From assembly GCF_900128945.1 (NCBI RefSeq), contig NZ_FQUD01000002.1, positions 524,371 to 588,370 on the forward strand: 64,000 bases of DNA, written 5' to 3'. The position numbers were made by a program, and so were the translations under genes. This DNA comes from Chryseobacterium sp. OV279 (lineage in GTDB: Bacteria > Bacteroidota > Bacteroidia > Flavobacteriales > Weeksellaceae). Positions 12,237-30,090 of the stretch are shown piece after piece; position 1 is the stretch's first letter, and every line of letters starts with the position of its first letter. The notes beneath the pieces are model-generated. The model was not told where the DNA came from. It was given only the letters and a program-made list of their open reading frames with translations, and ran no database searches.

Positions 12237-12686
12237 ATGAACGGAACATCAAAACTGAACGTCGAATCCGGAACGTACCAATCGGGATATTATATTTCAC
12301 TTTTCGGGGCAGCATTGATTTTGCTCTGGATTGGCATATTCAAATTTACACCTACAGAGGCAGCTGCCATCAAACCACTGGTGGAAAACCATTTTCTTAC
12401 TTTCTTCGTATATAAAACAGCAAGCGTCCAAATGGTGTCAAATGCTATCGGAGTGATAGAAATTATCATTGCCTTATTACTGATATTTAGTGTGAAATTT
12501 GCATCTCTAAGAAGGTATGCCGGAATTGGGCTGATCATGACATTTCTGGTAACGCTAAGCTATCTTTTCACAACACCCGGAATCTGGAAAATAGTGGATG
12601 GTGTTCCTGTCACAGATTTTTTCATCCTGAAAGATCTGATGTTATTGGGATTCGGGTTAATGATCGTACAAAACAATAAAAAGTAA
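12237..12686 (+). CDS. DUF417 (YkgB/RclC-like) inner-membrane protein
   Basis: The 149-residue protein has about four membrane helices (about 18-38, 58-85, 92-112 and 125-143). Motifs such as [21 protein letters not shown] and SPF-less loops fit the DUF417 family, which includes E. coli RclC, a membrane protein of the reactive-chlorine resistance operon. Its stop codon overlaps the next start (TAATG), so it is translationally coupled to the MsrA-MsrB fusion. This pairing supports a role in surviving hypochlorite-type oxidants. Biochemical function is not established. Confidence 0.8.
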
Positions 12687-13807
12687 TGGATAAAAAGAAA
12701 AAAATGAAAAATATATTTATCGTACTCGGAATTATTCTGGGTATCGCAGTTTTTGCTGCAGGATCAGGGCTTTTTAAAAATTCTAAGTCCAAAGAGCTAA
12801 CAAACGGAAAAGAAAAAGAAAATCAGGAAATTATGGATAATAAAAATGTCAGAGAAATCTATTTTGCAGGCGGATGTTTTTGGGGTACAGAGCACTTTTT
12901 TCAGCAGATCCGCGGAGTGGTGGGAACTGAAGTAGGCTATGCCAACGGAAATACTCAGAATCCAACATATGAAGAGGTGGTGAGCCATACCACAGGTTTT
13001 GCGGAAACGGTAAAAGTAAAATATGATCCTGAACAGGTTGATCTGAAATTGTTGATCGATCTTTATTTTAAAACAATTGATCCTACAACTCTGGACAAGC
13101 AGGGCAATGACAGAGGAAATCAGTACAGAACTGGTATTTATTTCAGCAATAAAGAAGATGAAACTTTAGTGAAAAATGAAGTTCTGAAACTGGCTAAAAA
13201 TTATTCTCAGCCTGTAGTTGTAGAAACGGTAGCATTGAAAAACTTCTACAAAGCGGAAGATTATCATCAGGACTATCTGGATAAAAATCCGGGAGGTTAC
13301 TGTCATATCGAGCCGGGACTTTTTGAAATGGCTAAAAATGCAAACCCACTTCCCAAAGCAAAATACCAAAAGCAGGATAAAAAAGTTTTAAAAGAAAAAC
13401 TGACTGCAGAACAATATAACGTAACGCAGGAAAACGCCACAGAAAGACCTTTCCAAAATGAATACTGGAACGAAACCCGTGAAGGAATCTATGTAGATAT
13501 CACCACTGGTGAACCTTTGTTTATTTCAACAGACAAGTTTGAATCCGGGTGCGGATGGCCAAGTTTTTCAAAACCGATCACCAAAAAACTGATCGATGAG
13601 AAAATGGACAAAACTGCCGGAATGGTAAGAGTGGAAGTAAGAAGTAAAACGGGAGATGCTCACCTGGGGCACGTTTTTACAGATGGTCCTACGGATAAAG
13701 GAGGTCTTAGATACTGTATCAACAGTGCTTCGCTGAAGTTTATCCCAAAAGCTGAAATGGAGAAAAAAGGCTACGGAGATTATATATCTCTGTTGGATAA
13801 AAAGTAA
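12686..13807 (+). CDS. Bifunctional peptide-methionine sulfoxide reductase MsrA-MsrB
   Basis: This 373-residue fusion repairs both stereoisomers of methionine sulfoxide in proteins. An N-terminal hydrophobic segment (about 10-28) suggests export or membrane anchoring. The MsrA domain (about 55-205) has the catalytic Cys in GGCFWG. The MsrB domain (about 235-370) has ESGCGWPSF and the catalytic Cys in RYCINSASL. Where some MsrB proteins carry a zinc-binding CxxC, this one reads [13 protein letters not shown], the zinc-free form common in MsrA-MsrB fusions. The start overlaps the previous stop. A second possible start is the ATG six codons in. An envelope repair role in the oxidative stress module is inferred. 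Confidence 0.95.
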
Positions 13808-16889: not shown

Positions 16890-17882
16890 ATGAAAATTAT
16901 GAAATGGACGAAGCGTATTCTTATGGCGCTGTTTTTAATCATTATTGTACTGTTGATTACAGGATTTGCCTTTGAAAAAATATCCCGTGCAAGGGCTGAA
17001 AAAATTAAACCTGACGGACAGTTCGCAGAAGTTGAAAATCATAAAATGCATTACCTTAAAGAAGGAACGGGCGGTCCGACAGTCGTTTTTGAAACAGCTT
17101 TTGATCCAGCAGGCCATTTGCAATGGTACCATATCCAGAAGGATCTTCCCAAAACCTACACTACTTTTTCCTACGACAGATCCGGAATTTTGTGGAGTGA
17201 GCGTGGAACCAATCCTAAAAAAGGTGAGAAAATAGCAGAAGAACTCCATACGTTGTTGGAAAAATCTGGTGCGCCAAAACCTTATATTTTGGTCGGACAT
17301 TCTTTTGGAGGAATGCTGACGAGGTTTTTCGTTAAAAAATACCCTCAAGATGTGGCAGGTGTGATATTAGTTGACAGTCAATATCCTGCTGATGAAAAAT
17401 TTCTTTCACCGGAAATGCATAAAATGGTTAATCAGGGCCTTCCAGGAGGATTTTTGAAGTTCGCGAATACTTTTGGAGCAGCGAGACTGATGTTTAAAAA
17501 TATGTTTCCGCTGGGAGAACAGTATAAATACCAAAATTCATTGATGCCTGCGCTGCTTTACAAAAGTGCCGATGCTACCCTGGAAGAGCAGGATCATATG
17601 AAATCCATTAAAAAAGAAGCGGCTGCCATCAGTTCTTTTGGATCTATTCCTTTATATGTAATCACAGCAGGAGATAAGACAAGGTATAATACTTTCATTA
17701 AAGAGCCGAAATTAAAAAACGAAATGCTTGGTGCATGGGATAAAATGCAGAAAGATCTATTGAATTTATCCACCGACAGCAAACAGATTATAGTCCCTGC
17801 GAGCGGTCATTACATCAATCAGGATCAACCCAAGGTCATAGAAGAAACAGTGAATGAAATGGTGAAAAAAGTAGAAGATTAA
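16890..17882 (+). CDS. Alpha/beta hydrolase with N-terminal membrane anchor
   Basis: From the ATG at 16890 the product has 330 residues. A hydrophobic helix (about 8-28) anchors or exports it. The alpha/beta-hydrolase fold follows: the oxyanion strand near TVVFETAFDPAG, the nucleophile elbow GHSFGG (Ser near residue 125), an acid near VITAGDKT, and a late His in PASGHYINQDQP. All three catalytic positions are present. The family includes esterases, lipases and haloperoxidase-like enzymes, and the substrate cannot be read from sequence. The longer frame from 16824 was rejected because the export signal starts at the inner ATG. It is divergent from the ABC transporter genes. Confidence 0.85.
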   Translation: MKIMKWTKRILMALFLIIIVLLITGFAFEKISRARAEKIKPDGQFAEVENHKMHYLKEGTGGPTVVFETAFDPAGHLQWYHIQKDLPKTYTTFSYDRSGILWSERGTNPKKGEKIAEELHTLLEKSGAPKPYILVGHSFGGMLTRFFVKKYPQDVAGVILVDSQYPADEKFLSPEMHKMVNQGLPGGFLKFANTFGAARLMFKNMFPLGEQYKYQNSLMPALLYKSADATLEEQDHMKSIKKEAAAISSFGSIPLYVITAGDKTRYNTFIKEPKLKNEMLGAWDKMQKDLLNLSTDSKQIIVPASGHYINQDQPKVIEETVNEMVKKVED

Positions 17883-17885
17883 TAG

Positions 17886-18100
17886 ATGTGAATGGTGAAT
17901 TTTGCTTCGCAAGTGAATGGTGAATTTTAGGTTATGAGAGCCAAGAATCAAGATACAAGAACCAAACGTCAGATTTCAGACAGCAGATTAACTCAATAAC
18001 TATGAACTTGCAACCAGCAACTGACAACATTCTTCAACCCATTACCAACTCCAAGACTCTCTCACTCTAAAACCCTCAAACGCTCAAACCCGAATCCAGG
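17886..18100. repeat. Long dispersed repeat, left copy beside the AAA+ gene
   Basis: This copy begins GTGAATGGTGAATTTTGC directly after the hydrolase stop. It continues through TATGAGAGCCAAGAATCAAG, CAGATTAACTCAATAACTAT and CTCTAAAACCCTC. The same order of segments occurs in reverse complement at 19545-19797 and 24025-24256. It holds no gene. Confidence 0.8.
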
Positions 18101-18175
18101 CTCATCAATTTTACTACATTTTCAATAGATGTTCAAGATTAAAATATTAAATTTGATAGAATTAATCGTTTGTTT

Positions 18176-19540
18176 ATGAAGTTAATTGAATTAGCGAAGG
18201 AGCTTAATGTTTCGGCAGAAGCCATCAAACAGTTTATCCAGGATTTTGATCTGGAGCTGGGTGTCTGCATCAGTACCAACTTTGAAGTAAAGGAAGATTT
18301 CGAAAAGTTTGCCCGTGAAAATCTGGATTTTTTAAAGCTTTATGAAAAAGATCTTGACAAAAATAAAACCCTGGAGCAGATCGCTGAGGTGATTAACCAG
18401 CCTAAGGAGAAAGTAGAAGAAGCCATAAAGGAAACTAGCCCCAATATTTTTGACAACGGGTTTTTCCGTTCGTCTATCTCAAGTTACGGCATTGATAATA
18501 AACTCGGCGGTAATTATCAGTTTGTTTACGATTATTTTGGACAGAAAACCAGCCTGATGCATCGGGATTTTATAGGGTACAGAGATTTATTTTTCTATAT
18601 ATCGGCAGTTTTGGAGCCATTCCTGAATCCTCAGCAGATCAAAGACTGGGGAATCCATAAACCGGCAGGAATTATCCTTTACGGACCTCCGGGAAGCGGA
18701 AAAATTTTCTGGGCGACCAAAATTGCTGAAATTATTGGCTATAAGTTCAAAGAAGTTAAAAAACATTATCTGGGAACATCATTCATTGATGGGAACCCAA
18801 CTAATTTCACTGACTTTCTCGTCACCATGATGAAAGAAGAGAAAGTCCTGCTTTTCCTTGATGATTTCGATGAAATTATGATGGAACGAAAAGCAGAAAC
18901 AGATCTGGCTTCCTGTAATCTTGAAACTCAGGAACTCATCCTGCATTATATCGGAAAATTTGAAAAAGAAGAACTGCTGATGGTAGGTTCCGCTAATTCC
19001 GTTTCGGAAATCGATGAAGAAATTCTCGCTCCGGGAAGATTTGATGTGATGATTCCGGTATTTCCACCCAACGCGGCAGAACGTTCAGAAATCATCTTAT
19101 ATGCGATGACCCGAGGACTTGAGGAAGATTCTCTTCTCTATAAAATCCTTAAAAAGAACAAAGCCGATAAAGTTCCGTTCTGGCACGATATCTCAGCTAA
19201 AATGAAAGCATTCAGCAATACCATGCTGATAGATTTTACACAGAGTCTTAAAAAACGCCTTAAAAACCAATACCAAAGAACCAAAAACGAAAACCTGAAG
19301 ATCGATCAGGCTCTTCTGAATGCTGCCTTAAGAGATGCTGGCGGAAAGCTTACCGAAGAATATCTTGACCAAGTAGCCAGATTCCTCGCAGATGCCATTA
19401 TCAATAATTTTGACGAATTCAGATTCAGAATACAATCCCTGAAAAAAGAACTGGAAACCTATAAAGTAGTAGAAGAACCGAGAAGAGAAATTGGATTTCA
19501 TCATAATGGGGAAGAGGGAAATGGCGGAGCGCAGGGCTGA
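18176..19540 (+). CDS. AAA+ ATPase with a degenerate Walker A motif and an IF2-N-like N-terminus
   Basis: The 454-residue protein has an N-terminal stretch (about 1-55, MKLIELAKELNVSAEAIKQF) resembling the small helical IF2-N domain. A second short helical repeat (about 64-88, TLEQIAEVINQPKEKVEEAI) follows. The AAA+ domain (about 135-320) reads GPPGSGKI at 170-177, with Ile where nearly all P-loops have Thr or Ser. Walker B is LLFLDDFDE, with Asp in place of the catalytic Glu. A sensor-1-like Asn (GSAN, about 274) and the arginine-finger-like PGRFD (about 286-290) remain. So it may bind nucleotide but hydrolyse poorly; that is inference. The apparent earlier start is a TTG; I used the ATG. 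The gene stands alone between inverted repeats. Function unknown. Confidence 0.8.
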   Translation: MKLIELAKELNVSAEAIKQFIQDFDLELGVCISTNFEVKEDFEKFARENLDFLKLYEKDLDKNKTLEQIAEVINQPKEKVEEAIKETSPNIFDNGFFRSSISSYGIDNKLGGNYQFVYDYFGQKTSLMHRDFIGYRDLFFYISAVLEPFLNPQQIKDWGIHKPAGIILYGPPGSGKIFWATKIAEIIGYKFKEVKKHYLGTSFIDGNPTNFTDFLVTMMKEEKVLLFLDDFDEIMMERKAETDLASCNLETQELILHYIGKFEKEELLMVGSANSVSEIDEEILAPGRFDVMIPVFPPNAAERSEIILYAMTRGLEEDSLLYKILKKNKADKVPFWHDISAKMKAFSNTMLIDFTQSLKKRLKNQYQRTKNENLKIDQALLNAALRDAGGKLTEEYLDQVARFLADAIINNFDEFRFRIQSLKKELETYKVVEEPRREIGFHHNGEEGNGGAQG

Positions 19541-19544
19541 TGCG

Positions 19545-19797
19545 TTCTGGTTTGAGAGTGTGAGAGTAGGAGGGTTTTAGAGTGGGAGAGGCTTGGAGTT
19601 GGTGCGGGGTTCGGAGTATCTTGTCGGTTGCTAGTTGTTAGTTCATAATTATTGAGTTAATCATCTGCTATCTGAAATCTGGCGTCTGGTATCTTGGTTC
19701 TTGTATCTTGATTGACTTCGTCGAACTGACGTTTCTTGGCTCTCATAATCTAAAATTCACCATTCACTTGCGAAGCAAAATTGACCATTGACATATC
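19545..19797. repeat. Long dispersed repeat, right copy beside the AAA+ gene
   Basis: This is the reverse complement of the left copy with the same segment order. It includes GAGGGTTTTAGAGTGGGAG-type runs, ATTGAGTTAATCATCTGCT, ATCTTGGTTCTTGTATCTTG, TTTCTTGGCTCTCATAATC and CACTTGCGAAGCAAAATTG. A GACTTCGTCGAACTGACG segment here is missing from the left copy. The rest of the spacer to 19848 holds no gene. Confidence 0.8.
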
Positions 19798-19848
19798 TTA
19801 ATCTCAGCCTAGAATCAAAAATTACTCATCACTTATTACTCATTACTT

Positions 19849-24024: not shown

Positions 24025-24256
24025 CGGGTTTCGGGGTATGGGTTTGAGTGTTTAAGAGTCTTAGTGTAAATTGGGTTTGGTGAATGTTGTCAGTTGCTGG
24101 TTGCTAGTTCTTAGTTATGGAGTTAATCATCTGCTGTCTGAAATCTGAAATCTTGGTTCTTGTATCTTGATTGACTTCGTCGAACGGACGTTTCTTGGCT
24201 CTCATAACCTAAAATTCACCATTCACTTGCGAAGCAAAATTCACCATTCACCTTTT
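24025..24256. repeat. Long dispersed repeat, third copy
   Basis: It has the same segment order and orientation as 19545-19797: GTTGCTAGTTCTTAG-like, GAGTTAATCATCTGCT, TCTTGGTTCTTGTATCTTG, GACTTCGTCGAACGGACG, TTTCTTGGCTCTCATAACC and CATTCACTTGCGAAGC. It ends right at the stop codon of the serine hydrolase gene. No gene is present. Confidence 0.8.
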
Positions 24257-29691: not shown

Positions 29692-29820
29692 AATTCAATA
29701 TTTATTTAAATAATTGTTTGACAAAGAACCTGCCAAATAGAAAATATGGACATTAAGGCAGAAAATGAAAACAGAAATTGGCTGTGAATGGTCAATTTTG
29801 CTGGGAAAGAAGGAGGGGAA

Positions 29821-30090
29821 TGTGAAAAGTCAATTTTGCTTCGCAAGTGAATGGTGAATTTGTTGTGTTTGGAAAATTCACGATTTACAATTAAGAATTC
29901 ACTTTATCGTTGTGAAAGGTCAATTTTGCTTCGCAAGTGAATGGTGAATTTGTTGTGTTTGGAAAATTCACGATTTACAATTAAGAATTCACTTTATCGT
30001 TGTGAAAGGTCAATTTTGCTGCGCAAGTCAATGGTGAATTTGTTGCGTTTAGAAAATCCACGATTTACAATTTAGAATTCACTTTACTGT
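29821..30090. repeat. Three exact-period 90-bp tandem repeats
   Basis: Units at 29821-29910, 29911-30000 and 30001-30090 are each 90 bp. Units 1 and 2 differ at one position; unit 3 has several changes. Each unit contains TTCGCAAGTGAATGGTGAAT (unit 3 varies), shared with the long dispersed repeat family, then CACGATTTACAATT and GAATTCACTTTA. A partial unit lies at 29783-29800. The segment lies between grpE (start side) and the metal transporter stop, in non-coding DNA. Confidence 0.92.

Follow-up and report, generated by a model that had tools for sequence, protein, structure and literature searches.

A lineage-specific family of pseudo-AAA+ proteins in the Weeksellaceae, with altered catalytic residues and an invariant C-terminal IGF tail

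The window, by which is meant the whole stretch of 64,000 nucleotides from Chryseobacterium sp. OV279 that was analysed, contains a gene for a protein of the AAA type in which several catalytic residues are replaced and which carries an Ile-Gly-Phe (IGF) tripeptide close to its C-terminal end. The features of the gene are as follows.

18176..19540, + strand: pseudo-AAA+ protein of 454 aa, ATG start at 18176 (ORF; Pfam AAA; full-length homologs)
18176..18325, + strand: small winged-helix-like domain, residues 1-50, MerR/IF2_N-like (AF2 model alone, VIA, hhalign)
18323..18439, + strand: second helical, HTH-like unit, residues 50-88 (helices 50-61, 66-73 and 77-87)
18563..19075, + strand: classic AAA large domain, residues 130-300 (Pfam AAA at 166-294; VIA against CDC48A)
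18683..18706, + strand: Walker A, GPPGSGKI, with Ile177 in the Thr/Ser slot (codons GGA CCT CCG GGA AGC GGA AAA ATT)
18848..18865, + strand: Walker B, LLFLDD, with Asp230 in the catalytic Glu slot (alignment of 130 distinct CDSs)
19031..19045, + strand: PGRFD, the kept arginine finger, the preceding finger slot being Ala285 (alignment of 130 distinct CDSs)
19211..19243, + strand: family signature FSNTMLIDFTQ, residues 346-356, in the helical C-terminal subdomain (alignment)
19490..19498, + strand: Ile-Gly-Phe, residues 439-441, in a presumably disordered C-terminal tail, proposed ClpP-docking motif (126/126 homologs)

The product is a classic AAA family protein (PF00004): this is its sole confident Pfam domain (62.3 bits against a gathering cut-off of 21.2), and the profile matches 28/28 family members at E ≤ 1. 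The AlphaFold model of the 454-aa protein has a mean pLDDT of 81.3, and its classic AAA module comprises residues 130-414, which was also the part covered by the fold search with the whole model, the N-terminus being folded separately. In VIA comparisons, residues 130-416 of the model align with residues 480-770 of CDC48A (Z 19.8, rmsd 3.4, 268 aligned), and the model also fits fidgetin-like 1 (Z 19.1, rmsd 3.0, 248 aligned) and archaeal Vps4 (4d82; Z 18.5, rmsd 2.9, 247 aligned), so that the modelled fold is of the p97 D2/Vps4/spastin class (Z 18-20). The protein shares both fold and domain limits with these classic AAA proteins (p97/CDC48 D2, Vps4, spastin), but differs from them in the change of Thr to Ile, in the loss of the catalytic Glu and of one arginine finger, and in having its own N-domain and an IGF tail. 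Within the family signature, F346, S347, N348, D353, F354, T355 and Q356 are invariant in family alignment A1. A search of the organism's own genome with the clpX model (TIGR00382) listed five places, none of them at 18176-19540. The anti-phage AAA ATPase IetA has an AAA domain in common with the protein, and was rejected as an identity because the scores against NF042959 and PADLOC IetA (39.0 and 48.4 bits) lie far below the 510-bit cut-off.

Residue counts were made on 145 locus rows, in which some genomes occur twice, reduced to 130 distinct homologous CDSs, 96 of them from the genus. An earlier note on this DNA had read a Walker A of GPPGSGKI with Ile in the Thr/Ser slot and a Walker B with DD instead of DE, and both readings are borne out, the codons at 18683-18706 ending in GGA AAA ATT and the residues at 18848-18865 being LLFLDD. 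The same note proposed looking at whether Ile after GK is conserved across homologs, and it is: of the 129 distinct CDSs that cover position 177, 128 have Ile there, encoded by all three codons (ATT, ATA and ATC), and a single relative, L141, has Thr. A local mutation or sequencing error was rejected, since the substitution is family-wide; what the note saw is correct and, if anything, understated. At position 176 the P-loop Lys is found in 128 of 129 covering CDSs, with Arg in the other. At position 230, the catalytic Glu slot, L141 alone among the 130 distinct CDSs has Glu; the other 129 have Asp, Asn, Ser or His, the last three appearing in other genera. The residue before it, 229, is acidic (Asp or Glu) with a single exception. 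Positions 285 and 288 presumably correspond to the two arginine-finger positions of p97. The PGRFD that the note described as kept is so throughout (R288, Arg in 130/130), but the other slot is Ala or Ser in 129/130 and Arg only in L141. Similarly, the sensor-1 Asn (Asn274), also said to be kept, is largely so in the genus (86 of 96 distinct CDSs) but not elsewhere (11 of 34).

In every sequence covering the sites except L141, two marks of an active ATPase, a Thr/Ser after GK and a Glu in Walker B, are absent, and the catalytic loss makes it very probable that the protein does not hydrolyse ATP. AAA proteins with altered motifs occasionally retain slow hydrolysis. A degenerate pore loop was considered and rejected: the alignment keeps an aromatic residue near the pore-loop-1 slot in most rows (25/28, by eye), so the pore is not plainly dead. 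The proposal of the earlier note that the protein might be a regulator without ATP turnover is well supported: throughout the family the Mg-binding Thr has been lost together with the catalytic Glu and one of the arginine fingers, while the P-loop Gly and Lys are retained and dN/dS is about 0.035.

The N-terminus had been described as IF2-N-like. Modelled alone with AF2 it has a pLDDT of 74.8, and Foldseek gave no match to this separate model under E 0.68, with the MerR-type RacA first and IF2 (4b43) eighth. By VIA, the MerR protein CadR fits with Z 5.7 (rmsd 2.2, 51 aligned) and the IF2 N-domain with Z 4.2 (rmsd 2.5, 48 aligned). In a six-frame genome search the IF2_N profile (PF04760) scored 12.1 bits on the protein against a cut-off of 25.3, which made it ninth of the 12 places listed, IF2 itself reaching 60 bits. 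Among 28 family members 6 match the profile at E ≤ 1 (best 3.5e-4), and in one of ten scanned N-terminal pieces the match falls on residues 61-80, in the second helical unit and not at the N-terminus. That second unit also has sub-threshold Sigma70_r3/r4 matches in several members. Aligned by hhalign with the first N-domains of 23 Bacteroidia IF2 proteins, the N-terminus gave 88%, over only 20 helix-turn-helix columns, which would fit many HTH families, and the controls consisted of shuffles and segments of the same family (at most 6.3% in 100 column shuffles, at most 1.8% in 11 other family segments); the value against 30 second IF2_N domains was 13.8%. In the model, then, the N-terminal part folds as a small winged-helix-like unit of the MerR/IF2_N kind, equally close to MerR and to IF2_N. 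What remains of the IF2-N reading is the winged-helix-like character and a weak resemblance, in which the helix-turn-helix stretch LAKELNVS..IK.FI aligns with Bacteroidia IF2, whereas the PF04760 score is below its cut-off and MerR domains fit at least as well. A translation-factor-like domain as the partner of the AAA module is not established, the link to IF2 being weak.

Presence in other genomes was counted by hand from the genome search listing, with a best E below 1e-50 as the threshold. Every one of the 173 same-genus genomes has a homolog, as do 82 of the 147 genomes from the rest of the family. These 82 are spread over 16 of 32 other genera, and within some genera presence is sporadic (2/7, 8/14 and 13/23 genomes). 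Searches of 346 genomes of the order and 345 of the class with the family profile, and of 296 genomes of the phylum with the L141 protein, all of them samples that overlap one another, gave no full-length relative outside the bacterial family and only generic AAA matches. Judged by these searches the pseudo-AAA+ family is lineage-specific, without sightings beyond the bacterial family in the sampled genomes. A mobile or viral origin was rejected, since the 24 pattern matches obtained on scanning viral contigs with the profile included no relative, and phage and plasmid records gave generic AAA matches only.

The sole canonical relative found, L141 (6028-7437), has GKT, DE, the finger Arg and the same C-terminal IGF, and its motifs LFFDEFD, AATN and IRPGRFD match those of most outgroup AAA proteins. 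A tree calculated from 28 family rows plus 6 AAA domains as outgroup, with seven trait columns left out, places it as sister to all 27 GKI rows, the GKI branch having a support of 100/100; the L141 branch is long and its exact position is less certain than this figure implies. Since L141 is canonical and sister to the GKI rows, the simplest history, and a probable one, is that the catalytic residues disappeared a single time, at the base of the GKI clade. The form lacking these residues is kept by purifying selection: the median dN/dS is 0.035, although this is a small sample, as most pairs are saturated and only 14 genus pairs of 150 sampled had dS < 1.5, and position 177 has three synonymous Ile codons with a replacement nowhere except in L141. 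Gene copies with stops or in fragments were seen in one related genus (G337, G338 and G365; loci L136-L138), and a copy with many stops in G062, a same-genus genome of 75% completeness; in the genomes with broken copies the gene may be dispensable.

The gene stands alone, with no conserved operon or partner gene beside its homologs, and a functional operon was rejected because the homolog loci have no conserved gene neighbourhood. In several genera it is divergent from the adjoining alaS and lies upstream of prfB and a DedA-type gene (names given by eye), a setting that may be an old gene position, and in other genera it has different neighbours. At four loci of one related genus (L163, L165, L168 and L181) it is found elsewhere, a few genes before three tandem transporter-like copies. 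In the window, copies of a repeat of roughly 200 bp flank the gene in opposite orientation (17876-18089 and 19558-19804), with a further copy at 24025-24251 and pieces at 29820-30041. The flanking copies are common to the closest relatives (L031 and L032) and mostly absent from other genus loci, the majority of which retain just the 60 bp nearest the start codon, so the inverted repeat is not part of the gene. About 60 bp directly 5' of the start codon (18108-18168) are conserved in many genus loci, while other intergenic DNA is not, and this stretch is probably the promoter region. Further upstream, the ORF at 12686-13807 resembles, by eye, a peptide methionine sulfoxide reductase in which MsrA and MsrB are fused.

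Function is best indicated by the invariant IGF tail, which the earlier note passed over. Residues I439, G440 and F441 are each found in all 126 distinct homologs of full length, in contrast to positions 436, 438 and 442, which vary. Conservation is also strong at other tail residues near the tripeptide, namely E433 (123/126), P435 (122/126) and R/K437 (120/126), and Ala stands immediately before it in 64/126. Each protein has a single IGF, which lies 3-25 residues before the C-terminal end, and the tail (residues 430-454) has a pLDDT of 33-48 in the AlphaFold model. As controls, IGF was found within the last 45 residues of 5/415 other neighbourhood ORFs of at least 150 aa and was conserved in 0/17 other neighbourhood clusters of at least five members; among the target rows of this control 1/33 was without IGF, presumably a broken copy in L181.

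In ClpX, IGF tripeptides at the tips of flexible loops insert into hydrophobic clefts of ClpP (PMC12383707). The general ClpP-docking motif is given as (L/I/V)-G-(F/L) in another source, which reports very little activity for the linear IGF peptide by itself (PMC8745299). Since the linear peptide is nearly inactive alone, docking would need a ring, and oligomerisation would have to be supposed for the present protein. The tail carries a tripeptide of this pattern on what appears to be a flexible element, IGF occurring in 126/126 homologs and in a region of low model confidence. The ClpX loop of the same genome reads QAIGFSSE, and a ClpP gene is present at locus L229, not close to the 18176-19540 gene but about 36 kb from it, with a match of 273 bits that is under the NCBIfam cut-off of 308.6. 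The IGF tripeptide on a flexible element is common to ClpX and the pseudo-AAA+ protein, but ClpX is a Clp-type AAA+ protein whose site is active and whose IGF lies in an internal loop, whereas in the present protein, a classic AAA, the site is dead and the IGF stands in a C-terminal tail. ClpP occurs also in genomes without the pseudo-AAA+ gene, so their co-occurrence gives no support for docking. The C-terminal tails of p97 and of the proteasomal ATPases emerge on the substrate-exit face, and those of the proteasomal ATPases dock the peptidase, which makes a C-terminal position of the IGF sensible for docking. Among open-licence papers, none was found that deals with the pseudo-AAA+ family or describes a C-terminal ClpP tail on a protein of the classic AAA type. 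That the tail docks ClpP is put at slightly below an even chance, and as a counterpoint a short invariant tripeptide could serve in subunit packing or in contact with another partner.

The best model, to which the sequence evidence gives an even chance, is a non-hydrolysing pseudo-AAA+ ring that docks on ClpP through IGF tails. The protein would assemble as a ring and may bind nucleotide, and without hydrolysis the ring could not power unfolding. Its C-terminal tails would dock by their IGF into the hydrophobic pockets of ClpP, at the site of ClpX docking, and the winged-helix-like N-terminal domains, on the far side, would select what meets ClpP. A ring without ATP turnover would open, feed or block ClpP and not drive it, so that its role could be either that of an ATP-independent activator of ClpP for loose substrates or that of a competitor holding ClpX off, and the chances of activator and blocker are about even. 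With its GKT, DE, finger Arg and the same tail, L141 suggests that the ancestor was a working ClpP-partner unfoldase, and its product is a candidate for an active ClpP-partner AAA of the classic type. The whole sequence of events, in which a p97/Vps4-type ClpP-partner unfoldase, still canonical in L141, became an ATP-free ClpP cap docking via IGF, is offered tentatively and the chances are against it. A comparable logic may be seen in the actinobacteria. Bpa is not an AAA+ protein, and its target is the 20S proteasome instead of ClpP. Bpa/PafE, an ATP-independent proteasome activator, is reported to be a ring that attaches to a peptidase via C-terminal tails without ATP (PMC10415612, PMC11953334), as is proposed for the present family.

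Three other explanations have to be weighed against docking on ClpP. The protein could have nothing to do with ClpP and be a pseudo-AAA+ scaffold, acting as a nucleotide-holding switch with an N-terminal domain for binding nucleic acid or the ribosome and an IGF that is used in subunit packing or by some other partner. The retained P-loop Lys, the HTH/IF2_N resemblance of the N-terminus, and the position of the gene beside alaS and prfB in several genera are all in keeping with this, but that neighbourhood is not conserved in other genera, neighbours are not partners per se, and the conserved IGF would be left without a partner; such a scaffold is considered unlikely. It is distinctly improbable that the protein is an inactive subunit of a mixed ring with an active AAA+ protein, its PGRFD arginine serving the active site of the neighbour, as the other matches found in these genomes are to AAA proteins of a generic kind, with about 20-30% identity, and there is no conserved neighbouring AAA gene. 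In favour of it, R288 is present in all 130 distinct CDSs despite the dead site of the protein itself, and plant FtsH-type proteins are reported to form mixed complexes that include inactive members (PMC9020784, PMC8042743). An ATPase still active through an unusual site, in which Asp230 and Asp/Glu229 work and the Thr is dispensable, would agree with the near-constant acidic residue at 229 and the kept P-loop Lys, but is very improbable given that outside the genus position 230 drifts to Asn, Ser or His, a finger Arg is gone, and the sensor Asn is lost in 23/34 other-genus CDSs.

On the evidence of the alignments, the family to which the 18176-19540 protein belongs is real and conserved, and is no ordinary AAA+ ATPase. 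That its own genus and 16 others of the bacterial family have retained it shows that an AAA fold can merit conservation even when ATP is not turned over. Should the IGF tail dock on ClpP, these bacteria would have a non-Clp, ATP-free partner of ClpP with a logic comparable to that of actinobacterial Bpa, and the L141 protein would offer a natural active form to compare it with. ClpP is the target of acyldepsipeptide drugs, and a docking pseudo-AAA+ protein would, if this is true, naturally compete for the same pocket.
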